From assembly GCA_017624735.1 (NCBI GenBank), contig JAGAMK010000024.1, forward strand, positions 1-47,585: DNA of 47,585 bases. Reading direction: 5' to 3'. This document shows positions 27,998 to 32,418 of this stretch, piece by piece. The DNA is from Clostridia bacterium. GTDB taxonomy: Bacteria > Bacillota > Clostridia > Oscillospirales > Acutalibacteraceae. Position 1 is the stretch's first letter. Each line of letters opens with the position of its first letter. The position numbers and the translations under genes are program-made. Under the pieces are notes generated by a model. That model made no database searches. It saw only the letters and a program-made list of their open reading frames with translations, and was not told where the DNA came from.

Positions 27998-28016
27998 TAA
28001 TTATAAACAATCATTT

Positions 28017-28098
28017 AATGGCGGGGTCTCTTGGCTCCCCTGAAAGGGGAGCTGTCATTTTCATAGAAAATGACTGAGGGGTTTCCCCGCCATTATTA
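28017..28098 (+). terminator. Terminator with a repeat in its loop
   Basis: AATGGCGGGG (28017-28026) pairs with CCCCGCCATT (28085-28094) and is followed by ATTATTTT. The 58-base loop holds GCTCCCC-TGAA-AGGGGAGC and GTCATTTTC-ATA-GAAAATGAC, plus a closing TGAGGGGTT. The outer stem matches the simple GCGGGG/CCCCGC terminators elsewhere in the window. Confidence 0.85.
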
Positions 28099-28111
28099 TT
28101 TTAAAAAATTG

Positions 28112-28136
28112 TGACCAAAATAGAATTTCTGCGTCT
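28112..28136 (+). promoter_or_regulatory. Possible ECF-type promoter of the sigma-serpin pair
   Basis: TGACC at 28112-28116 and CGTCT at 28132-28136 are 15 bases apart. They resemble the -35 'TGAAC' and -10 'CGTC' boxes used by many ECF sigma factors, which would make the pair self-activating. There is no good sigma-A promoter alongside it. This is an inference from motif resemblance. Confidence 0.5.
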
Positions 28137-28179
28137 ATATAAGTGAAAGGACTTTCAAATTAAAGTTGGGGGTGGATTT

Positions 28180-28737
28180 ATGGATGATGAAAGAATAATA
28201 GAACTTTATTGGCAACGAAATGAAAACGCAATCAGCGAAACAAAAGCTAAATATGGAAAGTATTGCTATTCTATCGCATACAACATTTTAAAGAATAATG
28301 AAGATGCAGAAGAATGTGAAAACGACACATATTTAGAAGTATGGAAAACCATTCCACCACAAAAACCAAAAATTCTTTCTGCATATCTTGGTACAATCAC
28401 CCGACGAAAATCAATTGATAAATGGCGTAAGAAAACGGCAGAAAAACGTGGTGGTGAGGTTCAGCTTTCTCTCGATGAACTCGAAAACTATCTTTCCGAT
28501 GACAAAGGTATATGTGATGAATTTATAGCAGAAGAAATGGCAAAGAAAATAGCTGAATTCTTAAGGACATTACCTGAAAAAGAATGTAATGTATTTTTGA
28601 GAAGATATTGGTATTTCGATTCCATAACAGAAATCTGTAACAGATACGGTTACGGACAAAGTAAAGTTAAAATGATGTTGAAACGAACGAGGGAAAAATT
28701 GTTTTCTTATCTTGAAAAGGAGGGAATGTTAATATGA
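28180..28737 (+). CDS. ECF-type RNA polymerase sigma factor
   Basis: A 185-residue sigma-70 family protein with only regions 2 and 4. Region 2 (about residues 20-90) includes YCYSIAYNILKNNEDAEECENDTYLEVWKTIP and the DNA-melting segment FLSAYLGTITRRKSIDKWRKK-like stretch. Region 4 (about 120-180) has LPEKECNVFLRRYWYFDSITEICNRYGYGQSKVKMMLKRTREKL, a helix-turn-helix that reads the -35 box. GGGGTGG precedes the ATG. Its stop overlaps the start of the membrane serpin gene (ATGA), the usual layout for a sigma factor and its membrane anti-sigma partner. The likely targets are its own promoter and unknown others. Confidence 0.93.
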   Translation: MDDERIIELYWQRNENAISETKAKYGKYCYSIAYNILKNNEDAEECENDTYLEVWKTIPPQKPKILSAYLGTITRRKSIDKWRKKTAEKRGGEVQLSLDELENYLSDDKGICDEFIAEEMAKKIAEFLRTLPEKECNVFLRRYWYFDSITEICNRYGYGQSKVKMMLKRTREKLFSYLEKEGMLI

Positions 28738-30293
28738 AATCAGATAAATTATTAGATGCTATTGGTATGATAGATGCTGATTTAATAGCACAGGCTGATA
28801 AAACGGTAAATAAAAGCAACATACGATATCTGAAATGGGTAGTACCTGTTGCAGCGACATTATTGATTGTGGTTGCAATTATTCCGTTTTTGAAACAAGA
28901 TAAACCTGATATTGATAATCCAATAATTGAGCAAACAACAGGTGGTGATAATTTTTCAGGAGGACAAACACAACCAAACGAAGATGAGCCATCAACAGAA
29001 ATTCCCGATTTGCCAATAATAATACCATCTCTTGATGACAATCCTTTAAAGCCTATGGTTTACAGCATAAAAAGGGCAGAATATCCTGAAATGGTTAAGT
29101 ACCCGTCCGATTGGATGAATTCGGATTGGGATAGTATGCAAGCATGGTATAACAGCAAAAAAGAACGTAGAAAATATTATGGTTCGGGAAAGAATCTGAA
29201 TATGTTCCTTACAAAAACTTTTAGTGAATTTCTTTCGGATTCAAATAATGAAAACAGACTTTATTCGCCCTTGAATGTGTATATGGCGTTAGCAATGACT
29301 GCTGAAATTACTGATGGAGAAAGTCGTCAACAGATTTTAGATTTGTTAGGTGCCGAAAGTATAGATGCTTTGCGTAAACAGGCGAATTCTATCTGGAATG
29401 CAAATTATAGTGATGATGGTGCAGTTACAAGCATTCTTGCAAGTTCAATATGGCTTAATAAGAGCATTAAGTTTAATGAAAAAACTCTTGAATTTCTCAC
29501 AACAAATTACTATGCATCATCATATCAAGGTCAAATGGGCTCGGATGAAATGAATATAGCATTCCGTAGTTGGTTAAATGAACAGACAGGTGGAATGTTG
29601 AGCAATCAGATTGACAATATGGAATTAGATGCAGAAACTGTTATGGCGTTAGCAACAACAATTTTTTATCAGGCAAGATGGGATTTAGAGTTTCAGGAAA
29701 AAAATACAGAAAAAGGCATTTTTCATTCTCCAATAGGGGATATAACCTGTGATTTTATGTGTCACAAGGAATACAATGATGATTATTATTGGGGAAATAA
29801 GTTTTCAGCAGTAGGCAGAAAATTGGCAAACAGCGGAAATATGTTTTTTATTCTTCCCGATGAAAATGTAAGTGTTAATGATTTGTTGTCAGACAATGAA
29901 GCATTATCGTTTATGGCATCAAACGGAAAATGGTCAAACAGCAAAAGAATAAGAATAAATCTATCTGCTCCCAAATTTGATGTTTCATCAAATATTGACC
30001 TCAAAGACGGGTTGATAAGCCTTGGAGTTACAAATTGTTTTGATAGCCGAAAATCAGATTTCAGTCCGCTTTGTAATAACGATGGTTTGAGCATTTCAAA
30101 GGTTGAACACGGTGTGAGGGTAACAATAGATGAAGAAGGTGTAGTTGCATCTGCTTTCACTGTGGAACCACTTGCAGGTTCAGTACCACCATCTGATGAA
30201 ATAGTTGACTTCATTCTTGACAGACCATTTATCTTTGTCATAACAAGTGAGGATGGCTTACCATTATTTACAGGTGTAGTAAATCAACCATAA
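28734..30293 (+). CDS. Single-pass membrane protein with extracellular serpin domain, putative anti-sigma partner
   Basis: A 519-residue protein. Residues 1-33 are cytoplasmic (MKSDKLLDAIGMIDADLIAQAD), like the short N-termini of ECF-linked proteins in Clostridia. Residues 35-53 are a transmembrane helix. Residues 54-105 form an acidic, Pro-rich linker. Residues about 150-519 form a serpin: LYSPLNVYMALAMTAEITDGES, then the reactive-loop hinge DEEGVVASAFTV, and the closing DRPFIFVITSEDGLPLFTGVV. Aligning the loop on its PP pair puts P1 at Gly or Ser, which would suit elastase- or subtilisin-like proteases. The small hinge residues needed for loop insertion are mostly present, so it could be inhibitory. 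Translational coupling to the sigma gene suggests an anti-sigma role, so protease attack outside could be signalled inside. Confidence 0.9.
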   Translation: MKSDKLLDAIGMIDADLIAQADKTVNKSNIRYLKWVVPVAATLLIVVAIIPFLKQDKPDIDNPIIEQTTGGDNFSGGQTQPNEDEPSTEIPDLPIIIPSLDDNPLKPMVYSIKRAEYPEMVKYPSDWMNSDWDSMQAWYNSKKERRKYYGSGKNLNMFLTKTFSEFLSDSNNENRLYSPLNVYMALAMTAEITDGESRQQILDLLGAESIDALRKQANSIWNANYSDDGAVTSILASSIWLNKSIKFNEKTLEFLTTNYYASSYQGQMGSDEMNIAFRSWLNEQTGGMLSNQIDNMELDAETVMALATTIFYQARWDLEFQEKNTEKGIFHSPIGDITCDFMCHKEYNDDYYWGNKFSAVGRKLANSGNMFFILPDENVSVNDLLSDNEALSFMASNGKWSNSKRIRINLSAPKFDVSSNIDLKDGLISLGVTNCFDSRKSDFSPLCNNDGLSISKVEHGVRVTIDEEGVVASAFTVEPLAGSVPPSDEIVDFILDRPFIFVITSEDGLPLFTGVVNQP

Positions 30294-30354: not shown

Positions 30355-32418
30355 TTATAATTTCATTGCAACGTCCCAAGCGCCCCAGATAACTGTACGA
30401 AGATTACCAACTTTGTTAGCATCGCCGATAACGTGTACGTGTTTTGCTTTTTCAGCAACAGGAGCAGGTTTGTAACCAACTGAAAGGATAACTGTGTCAG
30501 CTTCAACGTCGATTGTTTTGCCGTCTTTATCCATAATTGTAACACCATTATCACGGATTTCAGTTGTACGGCTTTCAAGATAAACAGGAACTTTGTTTGT
30601 CTTGAAGAAATCACGAAGATAACTTGTGTTAGCAAGAGCAACACCGGGAGTTGTAATAAGGTCATCCTGCATTTCAATAATAACAGGCTTCTTGCCCTGA
30701 AGATATAGTTCGTAAGCGATTTCACAACCTGTAAGACCACCACCAACAACTACTACCTTGTCACCTGCAAGTGAGTTGTCAAGAAGGAAATCAACTGCTT
30801 CAATTGCCTTTTCTGCACCTTTTACAGGAATCTTGTTAGCAACTGAACCAGTTGCAACGATAACCTCGTCAGCTTGGAGAGAAGCAATATCTTTAACCTC
30901 TGTGTTCATGTGAATTGTAATTGCATCATAGCGTTTGATTTCACGGTTGTACCATGCAATAAGGTCACGGTCTTTTTCTTTGTATGATGGAGCAGCAGCG
31001 GCAATAAATACACCACCGAGCTTGTCGCTCTTTTCGTAAAGGTCAACCTTATGACCACGTTGTGCACAAACCATAGCAGCTTCCATACCACCAATACCGC
31101 CACCGATAACAGCAATCTTCTTTGCTTTCTTAGCAGGTTCAATCTTGTATTTCTTTGACTGCATTGTCTTTGGATTAAGAGCACAACGAGAAAGTCCCAT
31201 TGTATCGAGAAGGTCCTGAGTATTTGCGTGACCCTTTGAAGATGAGAAGTTAAAGCAACCTGCGTGACAGCAAATACAAGGTTTGATTTCTTCAATTCTA
31301 TCTTCAATAATCTTTGTAATCCATTCAGGGTCTGTAAGAAACTGACGAGCAACACCAACACCGTCGATTTTGCCATCTTTGATGGCTTGAGCACCAACAT
31401 CAGGTTCCATTCTACCTGCACAAACAACAGGAATATCAACGAATTTCTTGATGTGTGCAACATCTTCAAGGTTACAGTTCTGTGGCATATACATTGGTGG
31501 GTGACACCAGTACCAAGAGTCATATGTACCATTGTCAGCATTAAGCATATCGTAACCTGCATCCTGAAGGTATTTAGCAGCCTTTTCAGATTCTTCCATA
31601 TCACGGCCAACTTCTGTGTATTCTTCACCGGGCATTGCACCTTCACAGAAGCCCTTCATCTTTGATACAGCAGAGTAACGAAGAGAAACAGGGTAGTCAC
31701 TACCACAAGCCTCTTTAATAGCCTTAACAACCTCAACTGCGAAGCGGTATCTGTTTTCAAAGTTTCCACCATATTCGTCTGTACGCTTGTTAAAGAATTC
31801 AATAGCAAACTGGTCAAGAAGATAACCTTCGTGAACAGCGTGAACTTCAACACCGTCAACACCTGCATCACGGCAAAGCTTTGCAGTCTTTGCAAATGCT
31901 TCAATGATTTCGTGAATCTGTTCCTTTGTCATTTCAGGACAGATAATATCGTGAGCCCAACGAGAAGGTTGTGGACTTGGAGATGCTAATTCGTGAGATG
32001 TGTCAAGAATTGGTTTAATAAGAGCACGTGTAAACTTGTTTCTGTGAAGAGGTGCTACGAGTTCAGTAATAGCCCAGCTTCTGCCCATACCTGCTGTAAG
32101 CTGAACGAATAATTTTGCACCTGTCTTATGGATTTCATCCATAAATTCTTTAAGTTCTTCGAACATCTTTGGATTCTGCCAAAGCCATTTGCCCCAGAAA
32201 GTATCACGAAGTGGTGCAATACCGGGGATGATAAGACCAACATTATTGTTAGCTCTTTCCAAGAAAAGCTTAGCAGCTTCCTTGTCAAAATGACAACCGC
32301 CAAGTTCAAACCAACCGAAAAGTGATGTACCACCCATAGGACACATAACAATACGGTTTTTGATTTCCACATTACCTATTTTCCAAGGTGTAAACAGTGA
32401 TTCATATTTTGAATCCAT
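30355..32418 (-). CDS. Old Yellow Enzyme-type NADH:flavin oxidoreductase with 4Fe-4S and FAD domains
   Basis: A 687-residue cytoplasmic enzyme of the 2,4-dienoyl-CoA reductase/trimethylamine dehydrogenase class. Residues 1-375 are an FMN barrel (FTPWKIGNVEIKNRIVMCPMG, then AGVDGVEVHAVHEGYLLDQF with its catalytic region, and VCAGRMEPDVGAQAI). The cluster cysteines are in CICCHAGCF and the later SRCALNP. Residues about 430-687 hold two dinucleotide folds, IAVIGGGIGGMEAAMVCAQRGH for FAD and VVVGGGLTGCEIAYEL for NAD(P)H. It probably reduces an enoyl or enone substrate; bile-acid enzymes BaiCD and BaiH share the same plan, but no specific substrate can be claimed. It has its own promoter and terminator. 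GAGGAGG precedes the ATG. Confidence 0.93.
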   Translation of the reverse strand: MDSKYESLFTPWKIGNVEIKNRIVMCPMGGTSLFGWFELGGCHFDKEAAKLFLERANNNVGLIIPGIAPLRDTFWGKWLWQNPKMFEELKEFMDEIHKTGAKLFVQLTAGMGRSWAITELVAPLHRNKFTRALIKPILDTSHELASPSPQPSRWAHDIICPEMTKEQIHEIIEAFAKTAKLCRDAGVDGVEVHAVHEGYLLDQFAIEFFNKRTDEYGGNFENRYRFAVEVVKAIKEACGSDYPVSLRYSAVSKMKGFCEGAMPGEEYTEVGRDMEESEKAAKYLQDAGYDMLNADNGTYDSWYWCHPPMYMPQNCNLEDVAHIKKFVDIPVVCAGRMEPDVGAQAIKDGKIDGVGVARQFLTDPEWITKIIEDRIEEIKPCICCHAGCFNFSSSKGHANTQDLLDTMGLSRCALNPKTMQSKKYKIEPAKKAKKIAVIGGGIGGMEAAMVCAQRGHKVDLYEKSDKLGGVFIAAAAPSYKEKDRDLIAWYNREIKRYDAITIHMNTEVKDIASLQADEVIVATGSVANKIPVKGAEKAIEAVDFLLDNSLAGDKVVVVGGGLTGCEIAYELYLQGKKPVIIEMQDDLITTPGVALANTSYLRDFFKTNKVPVYLESRTTEIRDNGVTIMDKDGKTIDVEADTVILSVGYKPAPVAEKAKHVHVIGDANKVGNLRTVIWGAWDVAMKL

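Follow-up and report, generated by a model that had tools for sequence, protein, structure and literature searches.

Contig JAGAMK010000024.1 of the Clostridia bacterium assembly GCA_017624735.1 (Acutalibacteraceae) was analysed over positions 1 to 47,585, and this whole stretch of 47,585 nucleotides (nts) is referred to here as the window. On its + strand lies a two-gene unit, in which the gene of an extracytoplasmic function (ECF) sigma factor (28180-28737) is followed by the gene of a membrane-anchored serpin (28734-30293), the two sharing a 4-nt ATGA overlap. The gene located 3′ of the serpin gene (30355-32418) is on the opposite strand, so the unit consists of two genes. An earlier reading made from the letters alone (hereafter the sequence-only reading) had described such an overlapping pair, whose second protein combines a short inner N-terminus, one membrane helix, a Pro-rich acidic linker and an outer serpin. 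The pair is real, as judged from gene coordinates, profiles and its recurrence in many genomes, and the layout is confirmed by hydropathy, sequence and Pfam.

The sigma protein matches Sigma70_r2 (E 9e-11) and the sigma70-ECF profile TIGR02937 (E 2e-17), above cut-off, and its residues 128-174 are covered by the Sigma70_r4 profile at 22.1 bits (E 1e-4), slightly below the Pfam cut-off of 24.1. As a small sigma factor with regions 2 and 4 only, it belongs to the ECF group. The product of the serpin gene has 519 amino acids (aa) and consists, in this order, of an inner segment, one membrane helix, a Pro-rich acidic linker, a conserved extension and the serpin domain (Table 1), with 97 aa from membrane helix to serpin domain by hydropathy and Pfam. 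The majority of the sigma-less serpins aligned with it share the YPEMVKYP-type extension. The serpin domain matches PF00079 with E 1.8e-60 over profile positions 3-370 of 370 and extends to the last residue, which places it in the serpin superfamily; its relatives of solved structure include tengpin, conserpin and alpha-1-antitrypsin, the best of them (tengpin included) at E ~1e-32. Outside the serpin profile, no Pfam domain scored above cut-off in the 519-aa protein, whether of RsiV type, RsgI or anti-sigma. With its adjoining sigma gene, single membrane helix and inner N-terminus, the pair has the layout of a membrane-bound anti-sigma system.

Table 1. Features of the sigma-serpin locus, numbered by position in the window
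Feature	Position	Strand	Basis
ECF sigma factor, 185 aa	28180-28737	+	Pfam and TIGR02937 profiles
Inner (cytoplasmic) segment, aa 1-34; proposed anti-sigma helix at about aa 6-21 (LLDAIGMIDADLIAQA)	28734-28835	+	Hidden Markov model (HMM) from non-serpin partners; coevolution
Single transmembrane helix, aa 35-53	28836-28892	+	Hydropathy maximum of 2.59 over 19 residues
Pro-rich acidic linker, aa 54-116	28893-29081	+	Sequence
Conserved YPEMVKYP-type N-terminal extension of the serpin clade, aa 117-154	29082-29195	+	Alignment
Serpin domain, aa 155-519	29196-30290	+	PF00079
Reactive-centre loop, hinge P17 (E467) to P1′ (V484)	30132-30185	+	Hinge pattern; P1 = S483, counted from P15
ECF-type promoter: -35 GTGACC (28111-28116), 15-nt spacer, -10 region CGTCTATATA (28132-28141)	28111-28141	+	Family-wide two-block motif
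Palindrome TGAAAGGACTTTCA by the expected transcription start, directly after the -10 region	28144-28157		Inverted-repeat count in family promoters

The pair belongs to a large modular family. From 227 fetched loci, 176 distinct sigma genes could be read with their downstream partner, three sigma genes without a detectable partner having been dropped. The overlap between sigma gene and partner gene is exactly 4 nts in 143 of the 176 pairs, and the partner is a serpin in 35, in a pool biased towards serpins by the serpin searches that contributed to it. Homologous sigma genes that always lack a serpin neighbour, the outcome against which the sequence-only reading had staked itself, were therefore not what was found. 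Whatever outer domain comes next, the partners share a common N-terminus (consensus L..AiG.IDD.lIeeA) followed by one membrane helix, the latter above the hydropathy limit in 173 of 176 partners; a strict expression for the N-terminal motif matches 129 of the 176. The combination of one N-terminus with different outer domains, for which that reading had recommended a survey, is supported: compared at E 1e-4, the outer parts of 164 of the 176 partners separate into 58 components, a number that distant kinship may reduce. A Pfam scan of 45 aligned partners returned two serpin partners, one DUF4179 and otherwise single weak matches, and a scan of nine representative outer domains returned nothing above cut-off. 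The window's own genome carries a second sigma/anti-sigma pair of this family (L002:950-2208, G000:C19), with a 236-aa partner whose outer domain is a different one and matches nothing in Pfam above cut-off.

For modelling of the inner segment and for coupling analysis, 167 of the 176 pairs were kept after overlap and hydropathy filters. An HMM trained on the 132 non-serpin partners scores 34 of the 35 serpin-partner N-termini at 14-38 bits and the remaining one at 2.0, against a best of 5.2 bits among 700 shuffles and at most 0.7 bits for nine sigma-less serpins of the same clade. By eye, the N-termini of these nine were judged to be of lipobox, signal-peptide or plain membrane-anchor type, and the low scores of these serpins led to the rejection of the idea that the serpin merely retains a generic lipoprotein N-terminus. 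In a serpin tree built from 55 rows, at least eight changes of the sigma label are required versus 14 in shuffles, and coupling and uncoupling of sigma factor and serpin therefore probably happened several times; the tree was made by a quick method and has many weak forks, its well-supported branches force only three changes, and L233 is labelled 'sigma' despite having the anti-sigma segment only. This L233 (G708:C14) is an orphan serpin that kept the anti-sigma segment with no sigma gene upstream, in a genome that holds a full pair elsewhere (L243). Two sigma-serpin pairs stand in tandem on one contig at L038 (probably the same contig as L003), and at L027 another serpin gene comes after a pair; duplication of serpins appears to have taken place around the switch. 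At L029 (G036:C18), a reading frame starts sigma-like (~50 aa) and continues as the second half of a serpin, through either a genomic deletion or an assembly join.

The inner segment also coevolves with the sigma factor. In a mean-field direct coupling analysis of the 167 pairs (effective number 150), the strongest couplings between the two proteins link sigma L140 to partner I13 (2.77) and sigma A125 to partner L17 (1.97); the former comes close to the best contact within the sigma factor (2.94), and the maximum over 30 random re-pairings was 1.84. The same two couplings lead when the serpin pairs are left out (132 pairs; 2.43 and 2.25, with a maximum of 1.88 in 40 re-pairings), and couplings learned on the non-serpin pairs give the 35 serpin pairs held out a higher score than random re-pairing does (z 4.3, p 5e-5), a result to which relatedness can contribute. 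Re-pairing within sigma clusters (60 runs) gave a maximum of 1.69 overall and 0.83 for 140-13, a control that is only partial because the largest cluster comprises 111 of the 167 pairs, while the columns of the membrane helix, which share the same phylogeny, reach 1.37. The next partner residues, 10 and 20, lie on the same helix face as 13 and 17 (1.27 and 1.38). Couplings to sigma region 4 exceed the null, whereas those to region 2 (32-14 and 71-10) stay below it. Since I13 and L17 coevolve with region 4 above every permuted pairing, with the serpin pairs left out as well, the inner segment is very probably an anti-sigma element, and the sigma-binding role that the sequence-only reading had assigned to this N-terminus gains support both from the coupling and from its sharing with non-serpin partners. 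Sigma residues 124-146, which include L140 and A125, form the start of region 4, which is approximately where the beta-flap of RNA polymerase binds. Occlusion of the polymerase contact is hence the likely mode by which the inner segment would inhibit the sigma factor.

Upstream of the sigma genes, a two-block model isolated a family motif composed of TGACC or CAACC, 15-16 nts, and CGTCTATA followed by GGTGAAAGG, which plain word-pair enumeration had failed to isolate. Of the 176 upstream regions, 174 were kept and 78 served to train the matrix, in which the median score is 12.1 nats versus 5.8-5.9 in three shuffled sets and the information 15.3 versus 7.6-8.0 bits. The 99% null score of 7.8 is exceeded by 128 of the 174 regions and by 24 of the 35 serpin pairs. 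In the window, one match is present at three mismatches or fewer, where 0.15 would be expected. Across the 2.04-Mb genome, GTGACC-N15-CGTCTATATA at two mismatches or fewer has a single match, before this pair (reversed control, 0), with the proviso that so strict a pattern can miss weaker targets. Hence the family motif and this sole match bear out the upstream ECF-type promoter that the sequence-only reading had suspected and that would allow self-activation; it is placed here at 28111-28141, where the interval first described begins (28112). Where sigma gene and inner segment are both missing, two of 16 serpin genes pass the score of 7.8 (L030 with 10.9 and L036 with 8.3, the highest shuffle reaching 13.0), and the orphan serpin L233 scores 19.3 nats; thus the regulon may include further serpins in some genomes. 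With a strict regular expression, less sensitive than the matrix, no promoter was found near the start of 10 sigma-less serpin genes, the only matches being far ones (L022, L023).

The palindrome that follows the -10 region recurs in the family. Inverted repeats with arms of at least 5 nts and a centre of 0-2 nts stand at its place in 46 of 103 promoters, compared with 2.2% in shuffles and 8.6% in a control region, where the 103 are those of the 128 promoters with sufficient sequence past the site, and where the left arm lies within the promoter-finding motif and the right arm outside it. Equivalents with changed but matched arms include TGAGAAGACTTCTCA, GAAGAGGCTCTTC and AAAGCGCTTT. An RNA hairpin would need a centre longer than these 0-2 nts, so that the site is possibly bound by a dimeric DNA-binding protein; some copies may resemble cre sites of CcpA. 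Immediately 5′ of the promoter there is a palindromic intergenic repeat (28015-28095), with 56 matches in the genome including this copy, many of them at contig ends.

The reactive-centre loop was compared among 39 anti-sigma-type serpins, the orphan L233 included. In all 39, the hinge has Gly at P15, Ala or Gly at P12, and Ala, Ser or Thr at both P11 and P10; as the search expression itself imposed P15, P12 and P11, this means that a hinge of that kind is present in every serpin, at the loop where it is expected. The residue at P14 is Val, Cys or Ile, and P14, P12 and P10 are without charge. By its small residues between P15 and P10, the hinge is of the inhibitory type. Counting from P15 puts Ala, Ser or Gly at P1 in 31 of the 39, and together with the hinge these small residues lead to the prediction that elastase-like or subtilisin-like proteases are inhibited. 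The hinge pattern is also found in 14 of 16 sigma-less relatives (no match in two), which have small P1/P1′ residues as well. It is worth adding that the anti-sigma serpin L098, of 644 aa, has a long C-terminal extension beyond the serpin domain.

Of 300 genomes of the taxonomic family searched with the serpin, 95 gave some serpin match, 27 of these at E 1e-80 or better; of 391 genomes of the class, 12 gave matches at E 1e-40. A scan of GTDB genome contigs added 11 loci from gut metagenomes of goat, roe deer, sheep and, by its title, rabbit, and from other sources. The sigma query matched in 32 of 120 genomes at E 1e-15 and in 129 of 398 at E 1e-35; among the 56 sigma matches listed in the E 1e-15 search, five have a serpin partner, and one further partner, which is truncated where its contig ends, groups with the serpins. 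Such pairs were also met beyond the family: L232 and L238 come from other families of the class and L243 from another family of the order. The pair thus recurs in many genomes, so it is not a chance neighbourhood. That sigma gene and serpin gene adjoin without any functional link found nothing in its favour and was rejected on the conserved overlap, the common inner segment and the coevolution, its probability being practically negligible.

These observations can be joined in a self-contained ECF sigma/anti-sigma switch whose anti-sigma factor doubles as a protease inhibitor that is spent or cut on attack, freeing the sigma factor, a reading that we hold somewhat more readily than its denial. 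Computation supports the architecture and its conservation, the modular nature of the anti-sigma segment, its coevolution with region 4, the family promoter and the inhibitory-type hinge. In the proposed sequence of events, the inner helix would dock on sigma region 4 and keep the sigma factor off RNA polymerase, while the serpin outside, held to the membrane by a single helix, would trap an attacking elastase- or subtilisin-like protease. The spent or cut anti-sigma factor would then be removed, probably via regulated intramembrane proteolysis, and the freed sigma factor would act on the promoter at 28111 to transcribe its own operon, yielding new serpin that restores protection and switches the sigma factor off again. 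Protease inhibition, loss of the anti-sigma factor on attack and the route of its removal are what we infer from those parts. A bolder version, towards which we incline less and which we put a little short of even, holds that the anti-sigma factor is a consumable: the irreversible spending of a suicide inhibitor would itself be the signal, the only promoter target detected would be its own replacement, and the serpin would be one module of a wide switch family of gut Clostridia that shares inner segment and promoter and exchanges outer sensors.

Several results weigh against this account. The distance from membrane helix to serpin ranges from 43 to 129 aa in 39 relatives and its length is not conserved, so there is no fixed geometry by which a change of serpin shape could be relayed; this favours loss or cleavage of the anti-sigma factor over a rigid relay, and a fixed mechanical relay through the linker was set aside. 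The sequence-only reading, which had built the serpin's shape change into the sigma regulator, is supported by the inhibitory-type hinge, and a rigid mechanical relay of that change is disfavoured. An M50 intramembrane (site-2) protease is encoded in the window's genome (209 bits) but also in 14 of 14 control genomes, so its presence says little, and a common site-1 cleavage motif was not established among the anti-sigma serpins. The Val or Cys at P14 and the aromatic P9 depart from the classical animal hinge. Only partner residues 13 and 17 couple above the null, residues 14, 38 and 2 score like residues 10 and 20 (1.38, 1.37 and 1.31) and lie off their helix face, and the ranking of held-out partners is weak, the true partner coming first in 4 of 35 cases. 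No promoter scores above threshold in 46 of the 174 upstream regions and 11 of the 35 serpin pairs, some of them from a wrong choice of start and some perhaps truly lacking one. Finally, in the window's genus a serpin was found in 0 of 3 other genomes searched and the family's sigma factor in 1 of 5, so the system is patchy.

The main rival is that the serpin only inhibits, shielding the cell surface and its own linker, until excess protease cuts the linker and triggers intramembrane proteolysis, the signal being the cut linker and not a change of shape. A cleavable tether would allow a stretch of variable and often low-complexity sequence between membrane and serpin, as is found, and the M50 protease would be at hand; on the other hand, the stretch is short in some members (43 aa in L031 and L238, 46 in L040, 47 in L015), and the rival leaves unexplained why the inhibitor sits on the anti-sigma factor itself. 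On balance it is unlikely, yet it deserves more weight than the other alternatives. Less probable again is a dosage homeostat, in which the inner segment would limit the sigma factor only to keep a set amount of serpin on the membrane, with no protease sensed and the serpin as cargo. The sole promoter match of the genome precedes the pair, so that output and inhibitor are the same protein, and the same inner segment bears many outer domains without detected mutual similarity; however, varying outer domains on a constant inner segment and sigma factor look like an exchange of sensors, and RsiV is a precedent for inhibition and sensing by one and the same domain.

In a further alternative, the serpin would be a sensor that does not inhibit but binds a ligand, a small molecule or peptide that drives its loop insertion. 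Some serpins do switch by loop insertion without inhibiting, and the aromatic P9 and the Val or Cys at P14 are unusual. Yet Gly at P15 and small residues at P12-P10 are invariably present, P14, P12 and P10 are uncharged, and the sigma-less relatives mostly show the same hinge and also have small P1/P1′ residues, which leaves this option very improbable. If the switch with the serpin as both inhibitor and sensor is true, a bacterial serpin would be at once a shield and a sensor through which transcription responds to protease attack, its supply being renewed by an inbuilt loop, and the role of bacterial serpins, like the sensing of host or microbial proteases by gut Clostridia, would become directly testable with one two-gene construct. 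In addition, a large modular sigma/anti-sigma family is exposed, of which few of the scanned non-serpin outer domains match Pfam.

ECF sigma/anti-sigma switches are already known, and we rate the serpin as the outer part of an anti-sigma factor as the new element. Among the systems suited to comparison, CnrY of the class II pair CnrH-CnrY acts in metal sensing, and SigI of the SigI-RsgI pairs is not known to be an ECF sigma factor. CnrH-CnrY of Cupriavidus resembles the pair in the window by a very short inner part and by the placing of the first helix of CnrY on sigma 4, as the couplings predict here; it differs in that a second contact with sigma 2 is not supported here. Helix 1 of class I anti-sigma factors and the first helix of CnrY both bind sigma 4 in a published coevolution study (PMC7406223), whose length filter of ~50 aa for class I anti-sigma domains (ASDI) is not reached by an inner part of 34 aa without a Pfam anti-sigma domain. 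In Clostridium thermocellum and its relatives, the biomass-sensing SigI-RsgI systems similarly combine one inner anti-sigma module with exchangeable outer sensors (PMC12484212, PMC3413522), with the difference that the outer domains of RsgI sense polysaccharides and that no RsgI domain matched in the window protein.

Searching titles and abstracts, a scope outside which most subscription papers fall, gave no serpin carried by an anti-sigma factor. In their excerpts, PMC12484212, PMC3413522 and PMC10059941 mention serpins and sigma or anti-sigma factors only apart, and the word sigma is absent from a comprehensive serpin phylogeny (PMC8233489). Among other bacterial serpins, the siropins, which belong to the gut commensal Eubacterium siraeum, act against neutrophil elastase and proteinase 3 (PMC5127057), and PinA, a serpin of the C. 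thermocellum cellulosome, inhibits subtilisin-like proteases (PMC12484212); the excerpts of both sources mention no sigma link. In Bifidobacterium breve, transcription of the serpin is induced by proteases, as would be the case here, but through a separate two-component system adjoining the serpin operon (PMC8012564).

In Bacillus subtilis, the anti-sigma factor RsiV is both an inhibitor of and a receptor for lysozyme, is cut by signal peptidase and then by RasP, and itself adds some lysozyme resistance (PMC5014341). The SigV-RsiV pair and the pair in the window have in common an ECF sigma factor and a membrane anti-sigma factor whose outer domain, presumably also in the present case, both inhibits and senses the attacking enzyme. 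They differ in that the outer domain is here a serpin, an irreversible trap, in a protein that lacks an RsiV-type Pfam domain and has an inner segment of 34 aa. On the best reading of this comparison, the serpin anti-sigma factor would work like RsiV, but for proteases.

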